NCBI GenBank assembly: GCA_024653825.1
Contig: JANLHF010000016.1
Location: 1-36,588 of the forward strand
Length of the DNA: 36,588 bases
Direction of reading: 5' to 3'
From: Patescibacteria group bacterium
GTDB taxonomy: Bacteria > Patescibacteriota > Minisyncoccia > Phycocordibacterales > Phycocordibacteraceae
Part shown: positions 22,364 through 33,870 of the stretch, piece after piece
Numbering within the stretch: the stretch's first letter is position 1
How the letters are laid out: every line of letters starts with the position of its first letter
The notes under the pieces: model-generated
The model's database searches: none
What the model saw: the letters and a program-made list of their open reading frames with translations, nothing else
What the model was told of the DNA's origin: nothing
Position numbers and translations under genes: made by a program

Positions 22364-23089
22364 TTATTTCACTTTCTCTAATAAGAGCTGTTCGAACTTG
22401 GTAACATCCGGGAAACCGACATCAAGAATCAGAATTTCGAGCCTCTTCTCGTAGCCAGTGATAATCAATAATCCAAGAATGACGAAGAGGATGCCGATGC
22501 CGCGTTTAAGATACCCTCGCGAGTCGGACACCCTCGTCAGACGGTCAGCGAAACGCTGTCCGAGAAGCGCGATGAGCAAGAGGACGAGCGCGAGGCCGAT
22601 AACATACGCGAGGATATACGCGGTCCCGAGCGCAAACGATACGGGAAGTACCGACGCGAGAATAACGAAGTAGGTCGGCGAACAAGTAGCAAACACGGGG
22701 CCCAAACCTGCACCGATGAGCATGTCACCGAGAACGCTCTTACGCTGGTAGCCACTGCCAACGAGCTTATTTGAACCGGCTGACATCTTCGCAATGCCGG
22801 GAATCCTCTCCCAGAGCGACGGGAAGATGAGCGTGAGACCGAAAAACAGAACAATGCCACCGGAGAGATACGCCCAGAATTGCGGCGGCACCATAATGAA
22901 TACGGTGGACACTTTCAAGAGATACGTGAAGACGATGACCGAGAGAGCTAGAGACCCCACCACAATATAGGGAGTCGCACGGCTTCTTCCCGAAGCCGAA
23001 GTCCCTATGACAACCGGTAAGAGCGGTAGTACGCAGGGTGCGAGTACCGTTAACACGCCCGCGATGAATGAGACGAAAAGGAGCGTCAT
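22364..23089 (-). CDS. ccdA: CcdA/DsbD-like thiol-disulfide transmembrane transporter
   Basis: 'LTVLAPCVLPLLPVVIGTSASG', 'GLGPVFATCSPTYFVILASVLP'; six hydrophobic segments with paired Cys in TM regions. Confidence 0.9.
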   Translation of the reverse strand: MTLLFVSFIAGVLTVLAPCVLPLLPVVIGTSASGRSRATPYIVVGSLALSVIVFTYLLKVSTVFIMVPPQFWAYLSGGIVLFFGLTLIFPSLWERIPGIAKMSAGSNKLVGSGYQRKSVLGDMLIGAGLGPVFATCSPTYFVILASVLPVSFALGTAYILAYVIGLALVLLLIALLGQRFADRLTRVSDSRGYLKRGIGILFVILGLLIITGYEKRLEILILDVGFPDVTKFEQLLLEKVK

Positions 23090-27986: not shown

Positions 27987-28892
27987 TCAATCGAAAATAT
28001 TGATGAGGTATGCGTCAATTGCCCGTTGGTCCATATCGTAGAACTGTAAGCCGTTGTTGTGGAGAGAGGTCGCGAGCTTCACTCCAACAAAACGCCAGTG
28101 CCACGGCTCGTAGACGTAATAAGCGTTGCCCTTCGGGTACGAAAGCACGAAGCCGTAGCGATAGGCGTTCGCAAGAAGCCAAGGATAGCTTGTCGTGCTG
28201 TCAAATCCGTCGAGGGTACCACCGATGCCGGTCGTGATGAGGTCAATAGTTGTGCCGAGTTGGTGTTCTGAATAGCCCTGGTCTGCAGAAAATGAGTTAG
28301 CGGTACCAGCGCCGTAGACGACCGTATATAAGGACTTCAGCGACTGTTGCTCGCCGAACGAACGGTATGCAGAACTGACGTAGAGGGTAATACCGTCTGC
28401 CTTTGCCGCGTTGATGAGTTTATTCAGAAATGGCCACGCCTCTATGATGATCTGCTCGGGTTTCGTTTCGGTGTAGAGATACTCCTTCGGTATGCTGACG
28501 AGACGCGCCGGCAAATAATTTTCGTTCAGGAAAGATACCTTGGAGTATTTTTTCAGAAGTTCGGGGTCTATCTGCGAGAGTTTCTGGAGCGAGCCAACCG
28601 CGCCGGAGATAGAACCGACCGTTTGTTCAACACCGCCGACTTTTGTATTCACTGCATCAATGTTTTGTTGCGCGCTAGAGAGCGTATTGGAGAGTCCGGC
28701 TGTCTGCGAGCGCAGGTCTGTGACATTTCGTGCAATATGGTCCGCGTTCTGCGAAAGCGCCGCAGTGGTAGATGCCAGCTCGGTCGTGAGAAGGCCGATA
28801 TCCTCTGAGAGCGCGGAAATCCGCACGAAGGCGTATATGAGAACCCCGCCGAGCAGGACAAATACGACCACTGCGGGAACTATGTTCGGCAC
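27987..28892 (-). CDS. M15 (VanY-type) D,D-carboxypeptidase with TM anchor and coiled-coil
   Basis: 'YVSSAYRSFGEQ', 'SADQGYSEHQLGTTIDL', 'YEPWHWRFVG'; heptad-rich region after the N-terminal TM. Confidence 0.92.
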   Translation of the reverse strand: MPNIVPAVVVFVLLGGVLIYAFVRISALSEDIGLLTTELASTTAALSQNADHIARNVTDLRSQTAGLSNTLSSAQQNIDAVNTKVGGVEQTVGSISGAVGSLQKLSQIDPELLKKYSKVSFLNENYLPARLVSIPKEYLYTETKPEQIIIEAWPFLNKLINAAKADGITLYVSSAYRSFGEQQSLKSLYTVVYGAGTANSFSADQGYSEHQLGTTIDLITTGIGGTLDGFDSTTSYPWLLANAYRYGFVLSYPKGNAYYVYEPWHWRFVGVKLATSLHNNGLQFYDMDQRAIDAYLINIFD

Positions 28893-28944
28893 GAGACTTT
28901 TGAAATCTTGGTGTTCTATAGACGAAGTATAGCACCCTGCATTT

Positions 28945-29589
28945 TTACGGATAATCTCGACCGTCGCCTAGGATAGGTATCTTGTCGCCCAGATATTTTG
29001 GCCTCGTATGAAAGACGACATCGAAGAGCGCCTTCTCGTTTGAAAATATTTCGCGGGCATAATTGTGGAAAAGGATGTGACCACTGTCCGCATTGACGCC
29101 ATAGACGTCTATCCCGAGTTCGCGCGCAATGAAGAGCGCGCGCGGTAGGTGGAACGACTGCGTCGCGATGAGCATAGAGGAAACACCGAAGATAGCGCTG
29201 GCGCGATACATACTGCTGTAGGTATCAAAGCCCGCGTGGTCAAGGAAAATGTCTTCATCCGGAATACCCTTCTCAAGCAGGTAGAGGTGCACCGGATTCA
29301 CTTCGTTGTGACTCACGGTACTGTTGTCGCCGGAGACGAGTATCTTCGCTACTTTCTCCGCGTTATACAAAGCAATCGCCGTGTCCACGCGGTCTATGAA
29401 GATGGGTGAGGGCTTACCGTTCGCAAGAATCGCCGCACCGGGGATCAGCACGGCTTCGGCGCTTGGCGCGACAGCCACGCTTTGATAAATGTACATATAC
29501 GTCGAGAGCACAATGTAGGTATTGACGAGGAGGATGAACGCGGCAAGCGCCACGACGCCGAATATGCCGATGGAGATGACGCGCTTCAT
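28945..29589 (-). CDS. SanA/YdcF-like DUF218 envelope protein
   Basis: 'AVLIPGAAILANGKPSPIFIDRVDTAIALYNAEKVAKILVSGDN', 'FLDHAGFDTYSSMYRA', 'IATQSFHLPRALFIARELGIDVYG'. Confidence 0.92.
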   Translation of the reverse strand: MKRVISIGIFGVVALAAFILLVNTYIVLSTYMYIYQSVAVAPSAEAVLIPGAAILANGKPSPIFIDRVDTAIALYNAEKVAKILVSGDNSTVSHNEVNPVHLYLLEKGIPDEDIFLDHAGFDTYSSMYRASAIFGVSSMLIATQSFHLPRALFIARELGIDVYGVNADSGHILFHNYAREIFSNEKALFDVVFHTRPKYLGDKIPILGDGRDYP

Positions 29590-29626
29590 GCCACCCAGTA
29601 TACGCCGTTAATGAGGCACCTGGTAC

Positions 29627-29653
29627 AAACGGCTCAGACCGTCTGAGCCGTTT
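29627..29653. repeat. Palindromic element copy 1
   Basis: AAACGGCTCAGAC-C-GTCTGAGCCGTTT, 13-bp perfect arms. Confidence 0.95.
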
Positions 29654-29665
29654 GGAATGGCTTAG

Positions 29666-29977
29666 TTAGGCCACTTTATAAGAGACGTTTTTCCCCGTAT
29701 CGCCCACCTGACTGATGCGCCCGGCACTTTCAAGCTCTTGTAGATAGCGCTCCGCCGTCGCGTCAGAGACGCTAAGGAGCGCCTGCACGCCGTCGTTGGT
29801 GATGATCCCCTTCTGCTGAATCTCCGCGAACACCTTCTCCACCGCGGAGCGCTTCGCGGCGGCGCGCTCCTCGTTCAGCGCATACGCACTCGTGTCCGCC
29901 GTCTTGCCCCGCCGTGCTATATACATCCCGATCGCGACCCCGACCACTCCGACAAGAACTAATACAAAGTAGTTCAT
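29666..29977 (-). CDS. Membrane-anchored winged-HTH protein
   Basis: 103 aa; N-terminal TM then 'KVFAEIQQKGIITNDGVQALLSVSDATAERYLQELESAGRISQVG'. Confidence 0.8.
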   Translation of the reverse strand: MNYFVLVLVGVVGVAIGMYIARRGKTADTSAYALNEERAAAKRSAVEKVFAEIQQKGIITNDGVQALLSVSDATAERYLQELESAGRISQVGDTGKNVSYKVA

Positions 29978-30081
29978 ATAAATATAGTATCATCCGCCGC
30001 CCGCTCCGCGGGCGGCGAACGGGACAAAACCTACCGGGATTCAGGATTTTCCGAAATATTGTGACTGTCCCCATTTCTCAG

Positions 30082-30104
30082 AAAAAGCCCCACCGGAGTG
30101 GGGC
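30082..30104 (-). terminator. Intrinsic terminator
   Basis: Minus strand GCCCCACTCCGGTGGGGCTTTTT. Confidence 0.8.
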
Positions 30105-30186
30105 CTGACGCGTCGACAACAGCCCTAGTCTTGAGCAAGGACTCCCCTTGCTCATTGTGGTAACGAACGGCCTGTCGTGAGTGAAT

Positions 30187-30213
30187 CGAACGGCTCAGAC
30201 CATCTGAGCCGTT
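30187..30213. repeat. Palindromic element copy 2
   Basis: GAACGGCTCAGA-CCA-TCTGAGCCGTTC. Confidence 0.95.
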
Positions 30214-30251
30214 CAAAACAGCACCGCGGTAATCCGCGGCGGGTTGTGGTA

Positions 30252-30345
30252 GAAAATAAAAACCCCGGCGGTCTGCCGAGGTAGGTACTGCGCTGGCTTC
30301 CACAGAGTGGGATCCTATACAAAACGAGGATTTGGCCAGCGCAGT
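30252..30345 (-). ncRNA. Candidate orphan small RNA with promoter and intrinsic terminator
   Basis: Minus strand: TTGACA-17-TAACAT, 6-7 nt, then ACTGCGCTGGC...GCCAGCGCAGT outer stem with two internal hairpins, then CCTCGGC-AGACC-GCCGGGG-TTTTTATTTT. Confidence 0.65.
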
Positions 30346-30395
30346 TTCTCGATGTTAATCGCCTGTGTATCTATTGTCAAGAAAAACACCGTTAG

Positions 30396-30791
30396 TTATC
30401 TATTTAAATACGTGATGGTGAGCTGGAGCACGGTCGCAAACGAAACCCAGAGGAGGTACGGGATGTTGGCGAGGGCGACCCATTTGATATACGGGTAGAT
30501 AGCCATAAGCGCCCAGATGAGGGTGCCCAGGATAAGGAGGATGTCTACGGAGGCGAGAGTGTAATTTTTAAGCCCGAATTGAAGATATGTGTAGGAGAAG
30601 TTGAAGACGAGATTGAGAGCGAACGGCAGCGCGACCTTCCAGGGCAAGGCTCCCGTAAACGCTTTATAAAACACGGTCCCATAGGTCACCGCGATAATCG
30701 CGTAGAGAATCGTCCACACCGGCCCAAAGACCCAGCTCGGTGGCGACCAGCTCGGTTTAATTAATTCTTGATATGAGGTGTAGGTGTTCAT
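30396..30791 (-). CDS. TspO/MBR family tryptophan-rich membrane protein
   Basis: 'KPSWSPPSWVFGPVWTILYAIIAVTYG', 'PFALNLVFNFSYTYLQFGLKN', five TM segments. Confidence 0.94.
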   Translation of the reverse strand: MNTYTSYQELIKPSWSPPSWVFGPVWTILYAIIAVTYGTVFYKAFTGALPWKVALPFALNLVFNFSYTYLQFGLKNYTLASVDILLILGTLIWALMAIYPYIKWVALANIPYLLWVSFATVLQLTITYLNR

Positions 30792-30809
30792 TACCCGAAT
30801 ACTACCACC

Positions 30810-31547
30810 CTACTTACACGCGCCTACGAGGTACGAATTAACGAGCGGATTCTTGCAGGCGTTACAGGAATTGGAGAAGGTCTCCTGTATCGGGTCGCAA
30901 GGTGTCGTTATGCATTGAATCTGTACCGTGGCGCAGACCGGCGTGTAGTCTGCGGTACAGACGTCGGCATTTCTTTGTTCTGGTGTGCAGTACCCGCCCT
31001 TGCTCGCGTCCGCTTCGCCTTCAAAATTTTGTACCACAATGCCGAACTGGAGCGTCACGGGGTCGAGTTTGAGATAGAGACTCTTCCCCTCTCTCGGCTG
31101 GGCCGTCATCGGTTCACCTGCTTTGCGGTCGGCATAATTGACGATGAGTTTCCCGTCCCGTATCTCGGTCGTCTGCGGAGCGATACGATCGCCGAGCAGG
31201 ACGGCGTCCGTGCCCTTGTAGCTGCCGTCCGCGGCTACAATCGTCGCGACGACGTAGTAAAAGGTGCCGCTTCCTCCGGTATTTTGCGTAAGCAGGAACG
31301 CGACGTCCGGCAAACTGTCGCCATTTAAGTCTCCCGTCGCGACATTGCCGAAGTACTGTGTGACAACCTTTTCCGCCGAGCCCGGTGCGCCGTCAGTCTC
31401 TGCACGGCCGTTTACGAGCGTCACCGGTTGACCGTTGATGATGAATGTTGGAGCCGGAACAGCAGACTGTCTCCCACTCGTCCAATACCATGCTCCGCCC
31501 ACGACGATAAGCACGCCAACGAGTCCGACGATTGTGGATGTTTTCAT
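30810..31547 (-). CDS. Secreted/anchored protein with Kazal-like Cys-rich C-terminus
   Basis: N-terminal TM; 'ATGDLNGDSLPDVAFLLTQN' (Asp-rich Ca-loop-like); C-terminal 'CTADYTPVCATVQIQCITTPCDPIQETFSNSCNACKNPLVNSYLVGAC'. Confidence 0.75.
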   Translation of the reverse strand: MKTSTIVGLVGVLIVVGGAWYWTSGRQSAVPAPTFIINGQPVTLVNGRAETDGAPGSAEKVVTQYFGNVATGDLNGDSLPDVAFLLTQNTGGSGTFYYVVATIVAADGSYKGTDAVLLGDRIAPQTTEIRDGKLIVNYADRKAGEPMTAQPREGKSLYLKLDPVTLQFGIVVQNFEGEADASKGGYCTPEQRNADVCTADYTPVCATVQIQCITTPCDPIQETFSNSCNACKNPLVNSYLVGACK

Positions 31548-31557
31548 AGAGGAAAGA

Positions 31558-32550
31558 CTAAGAAACCGAAGCGTGTAAGCGGGGGCGATCGCCCATGAAG
31601 GAGAGAAGTGCGAGGATGGCGAAGATGGTCGGCATCCAGTAGCCCGGCAGGTAGAGGAGGGCGATATCCCAGAAGCTTATCCACTGGATAGAGACGGTGC
31701 CGTTGACCGTCGCCACGTTTGCGAGCAATGTTGCGTCTTGTGTCTGCACCGCCTTCTGCCACGTCTTCGCGTAGCTGATATTCGCGTCTGCGTTGCTTAG
31801 GTTCTGTGTGTATGCGGTGTTCTCTTTGGCGAGCTGGACCTGGAGAAGTGTCTTTGCGCTCTCGGTTGTGTTCGCATCGTCTATTTGAGCCTGAAGCGAC
31901 TGCACCGTTCCTGCGTGTGCATTGATAATCTTCTGTCGCGCCGTCGTGTAGTCGGCGAGCGCCTGGTCGGCCTGCTTCTGCTGTTCTTCGATACTTACCT
32001 TCTGCGACAACATATTCTGCGAGGAGATATCGAGCTTCAAGAAACGGCTGCCCACAAGGTCTTCAAGTTCGGCGCGAAAGGCGTCGTACTTGGCCTCGGG
32101 AAGTGCGAAGCTTACGTAGCCGTACTTATCAGAGCTGGACTCGTTGTCGATACGGCCGTCGTAGCCGCGCACAGTCGTCTCGACACGGCGCGTGAGCGCA
32201 GGCACGTCGCGCGTCTGCATCGTCGCGTTGTAATAAATCTTTAAGAACTCGCGTGTATCGCTTACCGGCACGTCCGGACTTGGATAGGGGTACGGATAGT
32301 AATCGGGGCGCATCATAGCGCCCGCAGAACTTGTGACACTGCCGTCCATCATCGGCACGCCGCCGCCGGAATTGGGCGGTACTGCCTTGGTGTCAGAGTA
32401 TTCCATCATCCCCCCGCCAAATCCCATCCGAGTTGCGTATTGCGCGCTCGGATTAGAAACCGCAAAAAAAGTGATAACTGCGAGGAGTGCGAGCACAATA
32501 GTGATCCACGAGACGTAGCCAGGCAAGAAACCAAGTTTGTTGTTGTTCAT
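31558..32550 (-). CDS. DUF4349-like membrane protein
   Basis: 'VETTVRGYDGRIDNESSSDKYGYVSFALPEAKYDAFRAELEDLVGS', coiled-coil, C-terminal TM. Confidence 0.82.
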   Translation of the reverse strand: MNNNKLGFLPGYVSWITIVLALLAVITFFAVSNPSAQYATRMGFGGGMMEYSDTKAVPPNSGGGVPMMDGSVTSSAGAMMRPDYYPYPYPSPDVPVSDTREFLKIYYNATMQTRDVPALTRRVETTVRGYDGRIDNESSSDKYGYVSFALPEAKYDAFRAELEDLVGSRFLKLDISSQNMLSQKVSIEEQQKQADQALADYTTARQKIINAHAGTVQSLQAQIDDANTTESAKTLLQVQLAKENTAYTQNLSNADANISYAKTWQKAVQTQDATLLANVATVNGTVSIQWISFWDIALLYLPGYWMPTIFAILALLSFMGDRPRLHASVS

Positions 32551-32581: not shown

Positions 32582-32632
32582 AAAAAGCGCCCCGCGAGAT
32601 GGCGGCTTTGCCTATCTCGCGGGGCGCTTTTG
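32582..32632. terminator. Long intrinsic terminator, 18-bp stem, bidirectional
   Basis: AAAAGCGCCCCGCGAGAT (32583-32600) and ATCTCGCGGGGCGCTTTT (32614-32631). Confidence 0.9.
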
Positions 32633-33845: not shown

Positions 33846-33870
33846 AACGGCTCAGACGGTCTGAGCCGTT
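33846..33870. repeat. Palindromic element copy 3
   Basis: AACGGCTCAGAC-G-GTCTGAGCCGTT; 3' TT merges into the TTGACA-like -35 of 33937-34326. Confidence 0.95.

Follow-up and report, generated by a model that had tools for sequence, protein, structure and literature searches.

A putative small RNA gene, specific to its lineage, directly downstream of tspO in a Patescibacteria group bacterium

The 3' flank of the tspO gene in a Patescibacteria group bacterium (contig JANLHF010000016.1 of assembly GCA_024653825.1) on balance probably carries a stand-alone, lineage-specific small RNA gene, judging from its sequence and predicted fold. The window, i.e. the whole stretch of 36,588 nucleotides that was analysed, belongs to a draft genome of 669 kb in 41 contigs (G000), the relatives of which range from 0.3 to 1 Mb. 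Re-reading of the minus strand recovers the promoter, stem, hairpins and terminator of the original prediction. The sigma-70-type promoter (30352..30380, minus strand) consists of the -35 box TTGACA (30380-30375), a spacer of 17 nt and the -10 box TAACAT (30357-30352), agreeing with the consensus at 10 of 12 positions and recognised by that consensus match only. Six nucleotides (CGAGAA) separate the -10 box from the closing stem of a predicted three-way junction (30287..30345, minus strand), and a 4-nt linker after this stem leads to an intrinsic terminator with a U-rich tail (30255..30282, minus strand). The terminator has the form ACCUCGGC-AGACC-GCCGGGGU, with its hairpin at 30282-30262 and TTTTTATTTT after the hairpin. 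The predicted transcript would run on the minus strand from 30345 to approximately 30255, a length of about 91 nt. ATG is absent from it, and frames that open with GTG or TTG read on through the terminator. At the sequence level, the unit therefore combines a promoter of its own directly upstream, which matches the consensus, has the right spacing and is rare in shuffled sequences, with a short, apparently non-coding transcript that ends at an intrinsic terminator.

The junction is made up of the closing stem and two hairpins, P2 and P3. The closing stem is perfect, as originally described, with ACTGCGCTGGC (30345-30335) pairing fully with GCCAGCGCAGT (30297-30287) over 11 bp. P2 is formed by AUCCU and AGGAU around the 10-nt loop CGUUUUGUAU, and P3 by CCAC and GUGG around the loop UCU. 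P3 has 4 bp and not the 5 bp (CCCAC/GUGG) first proposed, the leading C of CCCAC being unpaired. Unpaired in the predicted fold are the P2 loop, the junction bases, the short linker and the tail. Both the minimum free energy structure and the centroid correspond to this junction, at -42 kcal/mol and with a z-score of -5.3 (200 shuffles); nearly the same segment gave z-scores of -3.8 and -5.1 when only 40 shuffles were used. Ensemble diversity is 3.0; there is a single dominant fold, and the best suboptimal structures differ from it only in details.

Neither the perfect stem alone nor the fold energy alone is decisive; the order of the parts is. Shuffled windows contain on average 0.67 perfect inverted repeats of at least 11 bp with a short loop, and the real window has five distinct ones. 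The folding energy is in approximately the top 1% of window segments, and is not unique among them. Of 200 dinucleotide-shuffled versions of the whole window, 26 contained a promoter followed by a terminator, with no stem required, and none contained a promoter, a stem of at least 8 pairs and a terminator in that order. Only one of the 25 promoter-like sites in the real window has a terminator shortly downstream, and that is the site of the predicted RNA.

The gene upstream, tspO (30396..30791, minus strand), encodes a TspO/MBR family protein of 131 aa (PF03073, E 4.1e-28). Its stop codon is 15 nt before the -35 box on the same strand, a setting that the original prediction had not noted, and the terminator of the unit is the first downstream of tspO on the minus strand. 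Given that the unit begins so close behind a same-strand stop codon, its terminator probably also serves the tspO operon. This setting would also suit a reading in which the segment is nothing more than the 3' UTR and terminator of that operon, with a junction that shields the 3' end of the mRNA or gives rise to a processed 3' fragment, and with a promoter that is fortuitous. Promoter-like sites are indeed at chance level around the locus, where positions 28000-32000 hold one, that of the predicted RNA, against 2.4 expected in 4 kb. We regard this reading as the likeliest alternative to a small RNA gene, if rather unlikely, since the promoter lies at a distance that fits initiation at the first nucleotide of the stem, and since the ordered arrangement did not arise in any of the 200 shuffles.

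The next gene downstream (29666..29977, minus strand) encodes a winged-helix-like protein of 103 aa, with weak, below cut-off matches to PF03297 and PF13412. Relatives of this gene are present in only three other genomes of the genus, and G065 carries five copies. From the terminator stem to the start of this gene there are 284 nt with no earlier gene start, in keeping with the original remark that no ORF follows. A second terminator-like hairpin, GCCCCACTCCGGTGGGGC followed by TTTTTCT, lies between the terminator of the unit and the winged-helix-like gene, and there are several other hairpins in the same 418-nt gap between tspO and that gene. Due to the distant next gene, the intervening hairpins and the absence of an ATG, the predicted RNA is unlikely to be the leader of a nearby gene. 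A riboswitch or attenuator controlling the winged-helix-like gene would explain a structured domain that is followed by a terminator, but is exceedingly improbable: the unit is not in a leader position, no alternative antiterminator fold appears among the best suboptimal structures, and there is no match in Rfam.

Further hairpin-forming sequences occur in this part of the window. Near-identical palindromes of the form AACGGCTCAGA-N3-TCTGAGCCGTT are located at 29628-29652, 30189-30213 and 33846-33870. Copies with exact arms number six genome-wide, of which three fall in one 4.3-kb part of the window, as against none for the reversed control, and the palindrome is possibly a repeated extragenic palindrome or a shared terminator. 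A hairpin-forming 28-mer, CGGAAAATCCTNAATCCCGGTAGGTTTT (30026-30053), lies upstream of the winged-helix-like gene, and its exact sequence is found in only one other of the 93 genus genomes (G102, after an ORF of 332 aa). Near-identical copies of the hairpin GAGCAAGGGGAGTCCTTGCTC (30132-30154) exist in G065 and, upstream of the DUF4349 gene, in G108. The strongest fold of the window is an intergenic, perfect inverted repeat of 18 bp with a 13-nt loop (32583-32631), of which similar copies are present in G066 and G108.

Searches for relatives of the unit recovered only itself. Two covariance models were built from this one sequence, R1 from the whole unit and R2 from the junction alone. With R1, for which stricter filters were used, the single match at E <= 1 in the 93 genus genomes (92 others) was the unit itself, and the 387-genome class sample contained no other match at E <= 0.1. 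With R2, run under laxer filters on 32 genomes, nothing credible was found, the two weak matches being to a simple hairpin and to the final part of a coding gene. DNA searches identified no homologue in 58 relatives, and only chance-level matches of 30 to 39 nt in phages and plasmids. An exact-stem scan of GTDB genomes gave one match; it falls within a coding gene in a planctomycete MAG, has a different interior and was judged to be due to chance. In its own genome, the element is single-copy by both DNA search and RNA model. Conserved structure with covariation is usual for small RNAs, though not required; no homologue for such a comparison was found in the 92 other genus genomes or the 387 class-sample genomes.

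Synteny gives the same picture. The most similar tspO is that of G108 (88% identity at the protein level, and 75-79% at the DNA level over the syntenic stretch), where the gene order is as here: the DUF4349 gene, a gene of 245 aa and tspO. In this relative, the nearest with synteny, the shared stretch breaks off at the stop codon of tspO, beyond which there is unrelated AT-rich DNA. The element is absent from the tspO 3' flank of G108 and from the region after tspO in G102, and following synteny via tspO and via the winged-helix-like gene revealed no element downstream of tspO in relatives. The tspO 3' flank is thus a variable spot. At the resolution available, the predicted RNA is lineage-specific, and as a small RNA it is most likely young. 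Absence from close relatives, which is one half of what the original prediction had named as speaking against it, is indeed what was found in the genomes searched, and the lack of any sign of conservation, including in the flanks of G108 and G102, counts against a small RNA gene. It also agrees with the view that the locus is a non-functional extragenic hairpin region, a variable and hairpin-rich tspO flank with no role as RNA, as do the additional hairpins of the 418-nt gap, the recurrence of palindromes elsewhere in the genome and a fold energy that is not unique in the window. We consider this unlikely, given that the element is single-copy where the palindromes are repeated, and that its promoter and terminator are oriented.

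Comparison with known RNA classes supports the original statement that the element matches no known riboswitch or ribozyme. Rfam 15 (4227 families) has nothing at the locus at or above the gathering cut-off, and the best match at relaxed thresholds is to a bare terminator helix, that of the cyanobacterial small RNA PsrR1 (RF02701, positions 53-79, 20 bits against a cut-off of 42). The PsrR1 terminator helix is similar in sequence to the terminator here, but the regulatory part of PsrR1 has no match. Two other candidates were set aside: a miniature mobile element or repeated extragenic palindrome, because the element is single-copy, and an integron attC site, because the usual core-site boxes were not seen on inspection. 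A divergent housekeeping RNA missed by its Rfam model, e.g. the SRP RNA, was also considered, as RF00169 (small bacterial SRP RNA) has no match in this genome at E <= 1 and matches 13 of 14 control genomes. However, none of 36 relatives gives an RF00169 match above the cut-off either, which makes the failure of this model a feature of the clade as a whole, whose SRP RNA is either very divergent or beyond the model's reach. A housekeeping RNA would moreover be expected in sister species, where the element is absent, and the fold is a three-way junction rather than a long hairpin with an SRP-type tip. The chance that the element is such a divergent housekeeping RNA is accordingly minimal.

The closest parallel for a small RNA gene in this setting is MicX of Vibrio cholerae, a small RNA that derives from an mRNA 3' region and has its own promoter (PMC9438474). 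As in 3'-region small RNAs of this type, the unit is at a gene 3' end, on the same strand, with its own putative promoter and a terminator that is probably shared with the upstream mRNA. It differs in that the promoter is located just past the coding sequence and not within it, in being a prediction from sequence, and in that the source genome yields no match to Hfq above the cut-off of that family. The Hfq profile gave one partial match in the 41-contig draft, at 12 bits against a cut-off of 27 and with an internal stop. The lack of an Hfq match above the cut-off in this draft, and a promoter recognised by consensus match only, are further points against a small RNA gene.

Returning to the small RNA gene as the preferred reading, we infer that RNA polymerase would start at approximately 30345 from the sigma-70-type promoter and stop near 30255 at the intrinsic terminator, producing a transcript of about 91 nt whose 5' end is fully paired. 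Read-through transcripts from tspO would end at the same terminator. The closed junction may act as a stable scaffold, with the 10-nt P2 loop exposed for antisense pairing with mRNAs. Target prediction with this loop, as originally proposed, yielded one weak candidate, a DsbD_2-family gene (22364-23089) with thioredoxin-like and MsrA-like neighbours. The loop and its flanking stem bases could form 13 contiguous pairs, G-U included, with the leader of this gene, approximately 15-28 nt upstream of its start. Apart from the RNA's own antisense, no other site on either strand of the window suits the P2 loop better; over 37 start regions, 1% of letter-shuffled loops pair as well. The search covered this window with two seeds, the P2 loop and the linker, and the latter found no target in the 37 start regions. 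Given the two seeds, the window-only scan and the partial opening of the P2 stem that pairing would need, the DsbD_2 site is a weak lead rather than functional evidence.

The locus is best read as an orphan small RNA with promoter and terminator, and in this the original prediction stands; its further description as a novel trans-acting RNA goes beyond what one copy and no homologue in the relatives searched demonstrate, and neither a novel class nor a decoy finds support. It is very unlikely that the element belongs to a new type of trans-acting small RNA from a Patescibacteria-like lineage, one whose closed three-way junction would expose a seed loop in the absence of Hfq and would adjust redox genes (here the DsbD_2-family gene) in concert with TspO. 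Bacteria commonly have orphan small RNAs, and a candidate from a single genome would be of interest only with expression or with covariation at the strain level. A full-text search of a literature collection found no catalogue of small or noncoding RNAs for this kind of bacterium, which makes a candidate with clear transcription signals a usable entry point.
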